Positions 5,087-54,294 of a stretch of DNA of 54,337 bases are shown here, piece after piece. This DNA is from Pirellulales bacterium (GTDB lineage Bacteria > Planctomycetota > Planctomycetia > Pirellulales > Thermoguttaceae), in contig JAFGRD010000143.1 in NCBI GenBank assembly GCA_016935315.1, positions 1-54,337 on the forward strand, written 5' to 3'. Below the pieces are notes generated by a model that worked only from the letters and a program-made list of their open reading frames with translations, was not told where the DNA came from and did not search any database. How positions within the stretch are numbered: the stretch's first letter is position 1; each line of letters begins with the position of its first letter. A program made the translations under genes and the position numbers.

Positions 5087-5324
5087 TAAGCTATCCTATG
5101 TCCACAAAGCGTTGCCCGCAATACCCCTTCGGGTCGGGTTGCCTTTGCTGACACAACAGCCATGCACACCTCGCTGGAATGGACTCAGGCCCCCTTGTCG
5201 GATGTTTGTCGCCGATGGTGTCCGTGGTTCCCCCCGGACTTTCGCCTCGTGGCGAGTCGGGGGCCTCTCGCAGATGTCCGGCTCCGAGCCGGTCCCAAGA
5301 GCCGGCCGTCGTCGATGCAAGTCT

Positions 5325-5425
5325 ATTGATGTTTGCATTGTCAATGATCCAGGCCGACCAGCGGAAGGCCGGAAAAATCGGGCTCCCGTTGGTCGCCCTC
5401 GCGCATTGACTGTGCAAGCGTCAAT
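5325..5425. repeat. 101-nt imperfect palindromic repeat, copy 2 (complete)
   Basis: Two 46-nt arms (5325-5370 and 5380-5425) are inverted copies with 35 of 46 positions matching around a 9-nt loop GGAAAAATC. The ends are ATTGATGTTTGCA and TGCAAGCGTCAAT. Several mismatches would be G-U pairs in RNA. It lies in the 424-nt gap between the kinase start and the 94-aa gene; the rest of that gap shows no gene. Confidence 0.9.
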
Positions 5426-12247: not shown

Positions 12248-12348
12248 ATTGATGTTTGGATTGTGAATGATCCAGGCCGACCAACGGGAGGCCGGACAAG
12301 TCGGGCTCCCGTTGGTCGCCCTCGCGCATCGAGTGTGCAAGCGTCAAC
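12248..12348. repeat. 101-nt imperfect palindromic repeat, copy 3 (complete)
   Basis: Same length and layout as the copy at 5325-5425, with loop GGACAAGTC. The central stem GACCAACGGGAG/CTCCCGTTGGTC is intact, but part of the outer stem has decayed (GTGAATG opposite CATCGAG). It occupies the 357-nt region between two divergent secreted-enzyme genes; the rest of that region shows no gene. Confidence 0.9.
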
Positions 12349-49900: not shown

Positions 49901-50150
49901 CGCGGCCGGCCGGAAAGACACAACCGGCACGGCGGCCCTTGCCCGAGTGGAGAACGGCCCGTTTGTGCAGCACCGCGCTGGGCAGGATTGCCGGATTTCA
50001 GCGGAATTCATAGATTTGTAGGATCGGTCCAGGAATGAGATCCGCCATAGACGCTCTCGGCTTCACGTCACGCTCAAGGTGGGGCTCGTTCCTCGACCCA
50101 CCCTACATCGCATACCGCGCCACCTTGCACCGTTCTTGAAAGGCCCTTTC

Positions 50151-51176
50151 GTGATCGACACTATCACGCTGGACGGTTCCGCGGGCGAAGGCGGCGGGCA
50201 GGTGCTCCGCAGCGCGCTGACGCTGTCGCTGGCCACCGGCCGGCCGTTTCAGATTGAGAACATCCGCGCGCGCCGCTCCCGGCCGGGCTTGCAGCAACAG
50301 CATCTGACGGCCGTACGCGCGGCCGCGGAAATCGGGCAGGCCAACGTCGAGGGGGCGGCCAAGGGGTCCCAGCGCCTGAGGTTCGTTCCCGGCAACGTTC
50401 GGCCGGGCGAGTACCAGTTCGCCGTCGGCACGGCCGGCAGTGCCACGCTGGTGCTACAGACGGTCCTGCCCGCGCTGATGACCGCCGCGGGCCCGTCGCA
50501 ACTGACGCTCGAAGGCGGCACCCACAATCCCTGGGCGCCGCCCTTCGATTTTCTGCAAGAGACGTTCTTGCCGATCGTCCGCCGCATGGGGCCGGACATC
50601 GAAGCCTCGCTACAGCGGCCCGGCTTCTATCCGGCCGGCGGCGGGCTGTTCCGCGTCGGCGTCGTGCCCGTGCCAACGCTCCGCCGCGTCGATCTGCCCG
50701 AGCGCGGCCGACTCGTCCGCTGCACGGCCAGGGCCGTGGTCTCCCGGCTCCCGGCGCACATCGCCCAGCGCGAAATCGACGTGATCCGCAAGCGGATGTC
50801 GCTGGGCGACGAATGCGTGAGCGTCGAGACCGTCGACGCCGCGGGGCCCGGGAACTGCCTGATGATCGAAGTCCAGAGTGAGCGCCTCACCGAGGTCTTC
50901 ACCGGCTTCGGCAAGAAAGGGGTTCCGGCCGAACGGGTCGCCGACGGGGCCGTTCGCGAGGCCAAGCAATACCTGGGGGCCGAGGCGGCCGTCGCCGAGC
51001 ACCTCGCCGATCAATTGTTGATTCCCATGACGCTGGCCGGCGGCGGCACTTTCACCACGCTGGCCCCGTCGTCGCATTTGCGCACGAACATCGACGTGGT
51101 GCGCCGCTTCCTCGACGTCGAGATCACCGCCGAGCAACGGTCGCGCTACGTCTGGCAAATCGCCATCCGGGCGTGA
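50151..51176 (+). CDS. rtcA: RNA 3'-terminal phosphate cyclase
   Basis: The protein has 341 aa from the GTG at 50151 (GAAAGG upstream), close to the Escherichia coli length of 338. It turns an RNA 3'-phosphate into a 2',3'-cyclic phosphate using ATP, in RNA repair and processing. Motifs: LDGSAGEGGGQVLRSALTLS, RPGLQQQHLTA, GTAGSATLVLQTVLP and the terminal HLADQLLIPMTLAGGG. H309 in APSSHLRTN lies at the position of the adenylated histidine in the E. coli enzyme. No RtcB or RtcR is nearby. It converges on the peroxiredoxin-like gene with 43 nt between the stops. Confidence 0.95.
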   Translation: MIDTITLDGSAGEGGGQVLRSALTLSLATGRPFQIENIRARRSRPGLQQQHLTAVRAAAEIGQANVEGAAKGSQRLRFVPGNVRPGEYQFAVGTAGSATLVLQTVLPALMTAAGPSQLTLEGGTHNPWAPPFDFLQETFLPIVRRMGPDIEASLQRPGFYPAGGGLFRVGVVPVPTLRRVDLPERGRLVRCTARAVVSRLPAHIAQREIDVIRKRMSLGDECVSVETVDAAGPGNCLMIEVQSERLTEVFTGFGKKGVPAERVADGAVREAKQYLGAEAAVAEHLADQLLIPMTLAGGGTFTTLAPSSHLRTNIDVVRRFLDVEITAEQRSRYVWQIAIRA

Positions 51177-51219: not shown

Positions 51220-51762
51220 TCAGTCGAGCGACTCCAACAGGGCGACGATTTCCTGGTAGGAAGGGGCCTCGGCCTGGTGCGACGGGTAGTGCGTGTAGCG
51301 GACGATTCCCTGCCGGTCGACCACAAACGCGCCGGGCATTTGCCTGACGTCGCCGATCGGTTTGCCCACGCCCCCGCGAGCCATCCCCTTCAACAGCCCC
51401 AGCCAGACCCTCGGCCCGAGCACCTGCCCCATGGTCCCCCGTTCCAGGCCGAAAGCCCGATACGCCTGGCGCTGGGCGTCGGCCAGAAAAGTCGCCTCGA
51501 ACTGGAACTTGTCGCGAAACATGGCTGCCTGTTGGGGCGTGCCCATGGTAACCAGCAGCAACTCGCCGCCGGCCTGTTTCAGGCGAGGGTATTCTCGATG
51601 CACGTCGACCACGTGCCCGCGCATGCACGGTCAACCCAGATGCCGCAGAAACAGCAGCACCACCGGCTGCCTGGCCCAGATCTCGCCCAACCGGATCAAG
51701 CGGCCTGTGTGGTCAAGCAGGGTGAGGTCCGGAGCGGCGTTCGCAACACGAAGCTTCGACAT
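51220..51762 (-). CDS. Peroxiredoxin-like selenoprotein candidate (SelL/AhpC-TSA-related), UGA at active site
   Basis: Read through an in-frame TGA at 51633-51631, the frame gives 180 aa from the ATG at 51762 (GGGAG 7 nt upstream). Its first 43 residues (APDLTLLDHTG...VVLLFLRHLG) are the start of an AhpC/TSA-type redoxin. The TGA is codon 44, exactly where the catalytic Cys sits (RHLG-U-PC-MRGH). The rest continues without a break (ELLLVTMGTPQQAAMFRDKF; FGLERGTMGQVLGPRVWL; GAFVVDRQGIVRYTHY). Directly after the TGA a stem-loop of bacterial SECIS type is present. The protein would reduce peroxides or act as a thiol oxidoreductase in the cytoplasm. If the TGA is not decoded, only a 43-aa fragment is made. 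It follows moaB by 34 nt. Confidence 0.85.
51600..51633 (-). promoter_or_regulatory. Predicted SECIS stem-loop after the in-frame UGA
   Basis: Downstream of the TGA (51633-51631) there are 14 nt, then a perfect 6-bp stem GCACGT/ACGTGC (51616-51611 and 51605-51600) with the loop GGTCG. The loop begins 21 nt after the UGA and starts with GG, as in known bacterial SECIS elements such as that of fdhF. Confidence 0.7.
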
Positions 51763-51796
51763 GATAATTCTCCCTCTTGGGCATTCCCCCGACATT

Positions 51797-52306
51797 TCAT
51801 CGCCTGGCTTCGCGCACCAAGTGGCCAAGCTCCGGCAAAATGATCTTCTCCATGGCCAGCCGCACGGCATTGCGCGAGCCGGGCATGGTCAACACCACCG
51901 TGCGTCCGATCAGCCCGCCGGTGGCGCGGCTGAGCATGGCCGCCGGGCCGATCTGGTCGTAGCTGAGCATACGAAACAGCTCGCCGTAGCCGGGCAAGGG
52001 CTTGCTCAGCAACTCGGCAACCGTCTCGAACGTCTGGTCGCGGCTGCCCAGGCCCGTGCCGCCGGTCAGCAGTATCACCTCAACCTCCGGTCGGTCGCCA
52101 AGCTGCAGCAACAACTGCCTCATCGCCTCCGGCTCGTCGGCAATGATCTCCCGCAAAAGCACCTGATGGCCCGACTGGCCGAGCAGATCGACGATTGTCT
52201 GGCCGCCGGTGTCGGTTTCCGGTGTCCGCGTGTCGCTAACGGTGATCACGGCGCACCCGACCACTTGGGGGGCCTGCCGGCGGTGTTCGTCGGGAACTTC
52301 CGTCAT
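51797..52306 (-). CDS. moaB: MoaB/Mog-family molybdopterin protein
   Basis: The protein has 169 aa from the ATG at 52306 (TAGAGG 8 nt upstream). It matches the MoaB/MogA fold: CAVITVSDTRTPETDTGG, VILLTGGTGLGSRDQTFETV, LSYDQIGPAAMLSRATGG and VVLTMPGSRNAVRLAMEKIILPELGH. It adenylates or binds molybdopterin in molybdenum cofactor synthesis. The selenoprotein candidate follows 34 nt downstream and is probably co-transcribed. Confidence 0.94.
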   Translation of the reverse strand: MTEVPDEHRRQAPQVVGCAVITVSDTRTPETDTGGQTIVDLLGQSGHQVLLREIIADEPEAMRQLLLQLGDRPEVEVILLTGGTGLGSRDQTFETVAELLSKPLPGYGELFRMLSYDQIGPAAMLSRATGGLIGRTVVLTMPGSRNAVRLAMEKIILPELGHLVREARR

Positions 52307-52402
52307 CGTTTGGGCCTCTAACCCGATGTAACGCCTCACCGAAATGGTCGCTGAGGTCGCAAGACTCCAGATTGGGGGCGGCGTTCACTCGCGCAGCGAC
52401 CC

Positions 52403-53902: not shown

Positions 53903-54022
53903 TCGTCAGGTCGGTAGTGAACAAATACTGGCCAGGAACTCTCCCAGCGGATCGCGAACCAGCACCACCAGGCAACTCTGGAATTGTTTCGCATACTTTC
54001 GGCCCGGTGAGAAACAGGCCCG

Positions 54023-54294
54023 TTGACGCAAACCGCTTTGGCATATGGGGTTGCGTCGAGTTTCGGCCACCTGGGTTGCTCCCCAAACGGCCGAAAACGG
54101 GGCTGAAAACTCGTCGTAAGTCTTGTGGTGACAACCGGTTGGAATTATTGAGCCTCGGCGGCGGGCGGAAATCGTGTGAAAATGGGCTGCTGTTCATCGT
54201 AACGTCTTGTGTGGCAATGGGTTGTGTTTTCGCTCCCGGGGCGATTTGGCCCATCTCGGCGCACAGCGGGCCCGTGGCGTGCCCGTCTGGGCAC
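54023..54294. other. Gene-free tail with several strong hairpins
   Basis: The last 480 nt hold no convincing protein. They contain: stem A, 11 bp with one bulge (54023-54034 with 54049-54059); stem B, TTTCGGCC/GGCCGAAA (54061-54068 with 54089-54096) with inner TGGG/CCCA pairing; a palindrome CAACCGGTTG; and stem C, GTGCCC/GGGCAC (54279-54284 with 54289-54294). It could be a structured RNA or a regulatory leader of a gene beyond the window. Confidence 0.35.

Follow-up and report, generated by a model that had tools for sequence, protein, structure and literature searches.

Does the single in-frame TGA of a redoxin-like gene in a planctomycete genome encode selenocysteine (Sec), or does it mark a stop, an error or some other form of recoding? 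The question is raised by a locus on contig JAFGRD010000143.1 of a Pirellulales bacterium (GenBank assembly GCA_016935315.1), the whole stretch of which, 54,337 nucleotides, was analyzed and is referred to here as the window; it is contig C23 of a genome of 7.1 Mb in 172 contigs that is 95.28% complete. With UGA taken only as a stop, a gene caller would truncate the gene at codon 43 or place its start at Met47 and, because this breaks the frame, such a gene is easily lost in annotation. The use of Sec in planctomycetes is itself already published (available text of PMC4807772). An earlier note, made from the letters of the window alone, had proposed a Sec codon at the catalytic Cys of a peroxiredoxin-like protein, followed by a SECIS-like hairpin. 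Following this up by computational analysis, we consider it very probable that this is the gene of a thioredoxin-fold selenoprotein, a member of the SelL-related family, in which UGA-44 is read as Sec.

Results

When read through, the redoxin frame (51762..51220, minus strand) comprises 180 residues and is closed by another TGA at 51222..51220. A renewed reading of the frame agreed with the earlier description of a TGA at codon 44 (51633..51631), open on both sides over 180 codons, and the active-site motif FLRHLG-U-PC-MRGH was found as it had been given. In the alignment with relatives, codon 44 was the sole interruption of the frame. The features of the locus are collected in Table 1.

Table 1. 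Positions of the redoxin gene, its recoding signals and its upstream neighbor in the window.
Feature	Position	Strand	Evidence
SelL-related redoxin gene, 180 aa with predicted Sec44, terminal TGA included	51220..51762	(-)	NF040769 and Pfam AhpC-TSA matches, 47% identity to G331
In-frame TGA, codon 44, probably read as Sec	51631..51633	(-)	Column is TGA in 74 other loci, Cys in 19/30
Candidate resolving Cys46 codon at U+2 (usual family position U+3)	51625..51627	(-)	Motif comparison
Shine-Dalgarno-like AGGGAG, 7 nt before ATG	51770..51775	(-)	Sequence
Putative bacterial SECIS apical hairpin, 6 bp, loop GGUCG	51600..51616	(-)	Relatives' pairing and compensatory changes
Upstream neighbor, MoCF_biosynth domain (MoaB/Mog-like)	51797..52339	(-)	Pfam PF00994, 106.7 bits

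The ATG at codon 47 gives an open frame of 134 amino acids, as would be needed if UGA served as a stop in a pseudogene or in a truncated gene restarting at Met47. The restarted product would be without the strand that precedes the active site and without the Sec/Cys residue, and the sequence flanking the TGA on either side aligns to relatives with up to 47% identity and no further interruption, so that we regard either version as extremely unlikely. The upstream MoCF_biosynth gene ends 34 nt before the redoxin start codon, and the two genes may possibly share one transcript. A functional link would be putative; no MoCF_biosynth neighbor was recognized beside the family gene in seven relatives, as judged by eye from ORF lists of flanks of about 1.5 kb with the first 60 residues of each ORF. 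On the other side, a gene for an RNA 3'-terminal phosphate cyclase (RTC, 269 bits; 50079-51176) lies convergent to the selenoprotein gene.

The read-through redoxin matched the NCBIfam family NF040769, "SelL-related redox protein," over its whole length with 148.5 bits (cut-off, 120 bits), as the only gene in the whole genome to do so, and the Pfam families AhpC-TSA and AhpC-TSA_2 with 61.4 and 57.8 bits, respectively. Its identity to the relative in genome G331 was 47% over residues 2-177, a range that spans the TGA. The best matches among solved sequences were peroxiredoxins and prostamide/prostaglandin F synthase, with E values of 1e-5 to 1e-4. In an AlphaFold2 model built with Cys in place of Sec from a 15-row alignment (mean pLDDT, 89.8), residue 44 was placed between a strand (34-38) and a helix (45-63), at the N-terminus of the latter. 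A Foldseek search with this model gave best PDB matches that were nearly all peroxiredoxins (probability, 1.00), headed by the Bcp/PrxQ and AhpE peroxiredoxins with TM scores of about 0.66 to 0.76 by query length.

The classical active-site motif of peroxiredoxins is PxxxT/SxxC. This motif is absent from the window redoxin, in which residues 37-44 read LFLRHLGU; its Sec form is given as PxxxTxxU in a 2026 review (available part of PMC13188914). Thus, the earlier proposal that the TGA stands at the peroxidatic Cys held in that the column aligns with the peroxidatic Cys of peroxiredoxins, but not in the motif, which is missing, the pattern of the family being UxxC/CxxC. Because PxxxT/SxxC is absent, a UxxC/CxxC-type redoxin would be the better description than a peroxiredoxin.

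Sec stands at the RHxG[U/C] position that is occupied by Sec or Cys in the NF040769 family and, on the evidence of this position and the whole-length match above the cut-off, the gene is assigned to the SelL-related family and not to SelL proper; it differs from the usual members in having its partner Cys at U+2 (UPC-M) instead of U+3. The Sec spacing of SelL is UxxU. SelL proper, which requires both Sec residues, was considered and rejected, as the window gene has one in-frame TGA before its stop, in the motif U-P-C-M. SelL is likewise a Prx-like selenoprotein (PMC2398784, in the text available), but it has two Sec residues (PMC3541580, likewise in part), whereas the window gene has one together with a downstream in-frame hairpin. 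The human enzyme prostamide/prostaglandin F synthase (9us9, 9usa), of the PRXL2 type, resembles the redoxin in a weak sequence match (E value, 8.7e-05) and a fold match at 23% identity; its active-site pair is C44/C47 according to the entry title, with Cys where the window redoxin has Sec, and no shared substrate is implied.

The protein query matched 223 of 396 sampled genomes of the order at E <= 0.001, and the family profile exceeded its cut-off in 51 of 392 sampled genomes of the phylum and, among 119 genomes of the family-level group to which the window belongs, in 3 (that of the window, G089, and G185), the genus of the window being represented by one genome only. We assembled 75 Sec loci, including the window, from 34 of the 35 TGA rows listed in the protein search of the order and 41 rows of the profile search of the phylum, excluding the fifteen weakest other TGA rows of the latter. 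In all 75, the TGA falls in one and the same column and, in a comparison of 30 loci, the 19 without TGA have Cys there, so that the alignment of Cys or TGA with codon 44 that had been proposed as a check was found in the homologs examined. The relative with the best score carries TGA. Among named loci, the protein query found 16, at identities of up to 41%, 9 of which have names with Planctomycet- or Phycisphaerales. In plasmids, a distant DNA search gave no match.

The whole-genome search detected neighboring selB (369.5 bits) and selA (557.8 bits) genes on contig C55, a tRNA-Sec on C58 (74.8 bits) whose anticodon ARAGORN reads as TCA, and selD on C112 (360.4 bits), itself with one in-frame TGA at SGUAAK. 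A further tRNA-Sec match, on C159, scored 48 bits against a cut-off of 47 and is read as tRNA-Ser by ARAGORN. The set of selA, selB, selC, and selD is therefore complete in the genome and, as the earlier note had said, lies outside the window, with matches above the cut-off on C55, C112, and C58 and none on C23. In a formate dehydrogenase alpha gene (839.3 bits), an in-frame TGA is located at ARLUHAP; another Fdh-like frame (L179, G000:C123) has one at ARIUHSA, although the Fdh-alpha profile matches it in pieces and under the cut-off. Among the genes looked for, the genome thus has two, and probably three, other predicted selenoprotein genes. The open frame, and nothing else, would also fit a UGA read as another residue such as Trp, by general recoding or leaky read-through. 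We find this hardly credible, given that the column holds Cys rather than Trp in relatives lacking the TGA, that the same gene also ends in a TGA stop, and that the Sec system is complete.

Bacterial SECIS elements are limited in their spacing from the UGA to the loop. The hairpin GCACGU-GGUCG-ACGUGC (51616..51600, minus strand) spans the 15th to the 31st base downstream of the UGA, with the first loop base 21 nt after it, confirming the perfect 6-bp stem with the loop GGUCG that had been reported to start at the 15th base. A bacterial SECIS is described as a hairpin immediately after the UGA whose small apical loop contains a guanosine (available text of PMC1088965), a description that the window hairpin fits in its loop as well as its conservation and covariation. 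Taken alone, the hairpin is unremarkable: folding of the 56-nt stretch gave z = -0.62 relative to dinucleotide shuffles, and synonymous-codon shuffles of the window keep all six pairs in 17%. Because single-sequence folding is not significantly stable, the argument for a SECIS rests on comparison with relatives, through which the hairpin becomes more than chance.

All six pairs are formed at the register of the window in the nine best-scoring TGA relatives (L017, L020, L022, L023, L028, L029, L031, L032, and L035), which were ranked by protein score in the 396-genome sample of the order and hence blind to the hairpin; the tenth (L044) forms four of six. The window shares all 17 bases of the hairpin with both L017 and L020. 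None of the 42 Cys rows (38 distinct, with four second copies) has all six pairs, nor does any of the other 64 Sec rows, which, having fewer than six pairs at this register, would therefore use another hairpin or none. By a looser rule (a stem free of mismatches, G within the first two bases of the loop, and a loop start 16 to 37 nt after the UGA), a stem of at least 6 was found in 58 of 75 Sec rows compared with 10 of 42 Cys rows.

Covariation was evaluated in a set of 11 rows, consisting of the window, the nine relatives and L103 (a fragmentary gene, located at a contig end, which in the tree clusters with L022 and L023); these are exactly the rows with six of six pairs and were picked after the pairing had been seen. 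All 11 loops begin with GGU. Pairs 1 to 3 are invariant, pair 4 is C-G in 6 rows, G-C in 4, and A-U in 1, pair 5 is G-C in 6 and A-U in 5, and pair 6 is U-A in 8 and U-G in 3, with compensatory changes at two of the six pairs. Paired cells amounted to 100% compared with 86.9% in shuffles (0/500 shuffles), partly by the choice of rows. The cells changed on both sides numbered 10 (mean in shuffles, 3.9), and the score for covariation was 0.461 compared with 0.205 in shuffles (0/500 shuffles for each), although the rows are related. Sliding the partner arm lowered the pairing to 51.5% or less. The number of pairs with two-sided changes (2 vs 1.8) and of pair types (4 vs 4.3) did not exceed the shuffles. 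Because part of the stem change tracks the amino acids (HV.DV vs QM.DL), synonymous codons were also drawn, giving probabilities of six of six pairs of 0.02 to 0.30 per sequence, which are jointly small, although the sequences are related. The case thus documents a conserved and covarying putative bacterial SECIS among relatives of one order.

A sequencing or assembly error, with TGC or TGT as the true codon of a plain Cys redoxin, would be in keeping with the Cys found in both relatives of the family-level group that exceed the profile cut-off (L019 and L021) and with an exchange between Sec and Cys that occurred at least five times on the tree of 46 chosen rows. Such an error would, however, have had to fall in a gene that shares its hairpin with two Sec relatives and with none of the Cys rows, and whose best-scoring relative has TGA; we judge it to be very unlikely. 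Taken together, Sec at codon 44 appears to be well supported.

As for the partner residue, 69 of the 75 Sec loci have UxxC, the +3 position is A, S, or F in 5, and the window alone has Cys at U+2, so that the U-x-C spacing, previously remarked on as unusual compared with U-x-x-C, is unique among the Sec loci examined. The five without the partner Cys at U+3 (L125, L128, L139, L152, and L155) are possible one-Sec members, and a further Sec form, UxxT, was observed in a named MAG (L177), outside the 75-locus counts. By eye, CxxC is present in 36 of 38 distinct Cys relatives, the other two being those of G089 and G185, in the family-level group of the window, with CPC-T-G. Compared with UPMCREH in L017 and UPLCREH in L020, UPCMRGH in the window is of equal length with, in the Met/Cys order beside the UGA as assembled, the Cys and its neighbor swapped. 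In the 46-row tree, the sister group of the window was unresolved (support, 37/53), and a constrained topology joining it to the pair of CPC proteins withstood the AU test (p, 0.423), which shows neither a common nor a separate origin of xPC. It is a tentative and rather doubtful idea that, within one family-level group, the resolving Cys moved from +3 to +2 and that xPC persisted through the Sec/Cys exchange, as UPC in the window and CPC in genus g8. If this shift is true, a strained, smaller selenenylsulfide ring would result, with a redox potential unlike that of the UxxC members.

Discussion

The conserved parts of this system suggest a route by which SelB and Sec-tRNA(UCA) would bind the hairpin just downstream of UGA-44 and insert Sec. 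Located at the N-terminus of the first long helix, Sec44 could then act as the attacking selenolate and would most likely be resolved by Cys46 as a selenenylsulfide, a role that in most relatives presumably falls to the U+3 Cys; the redoxin may then be reset by a reductant of the cell, for example thioredoxin. The substrate would belong to the class of peroxides or disulfides. Because PxxxT/SxxC is missing, a thiol-disulfide or PRXL2-like reductase is mildly favored over a classical peroxiredoxin.

The redoxin belongs to a family that has been described before, its one unusual feature being where the partner Cys lies. Prx-like selenoproteins with Sec two residues before Cys have been published, as one UXC sequence in Table 3 of the Sargasso Sea paper (PMC1088965) and as a UGC-containing group in the GOS paper (PMC2398784); in the available text of both, they are listed by motif only and are compared with the window by motif alone. 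The available part of the 2026 review (PMC13188914) gives, for TlpA-like and thioredoxin-like families, the motifs UGC and UxC and tabulates Prx-like UxxC/UxxU forms and a cd02970 UxxS form, and parts 1-2 of its section 7 do not name NF040769. Our literature search, in which subscription journals were outside the scope, found no report on SelL-related/NF040769 selenoproteins or on planctomycete AhpC-type selenoproteins. The picture of Sec coding is unchanged, and the natural series of UxC, CxC, UxxC, and CxxC in one family offers a test of the effects of ring size and Sec on redox properties.

Apart from the redoxin gene, the window contains a dispersed element of about 100 bp at 3-86, 5323-5425, and 12249-12347, which is 88-93% identical to L159 2186-2288 and is also present in 5 of 12 other stretches of the genome (L161, L048, L178, L007, and L014; 78-91%), and which looks like an intergenic repeat family. 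Near the end of the window contig, a further repeat, of 194 bp (53978-54171), matches the end of contig C55 (L159 14541-14734) at 90% identity.
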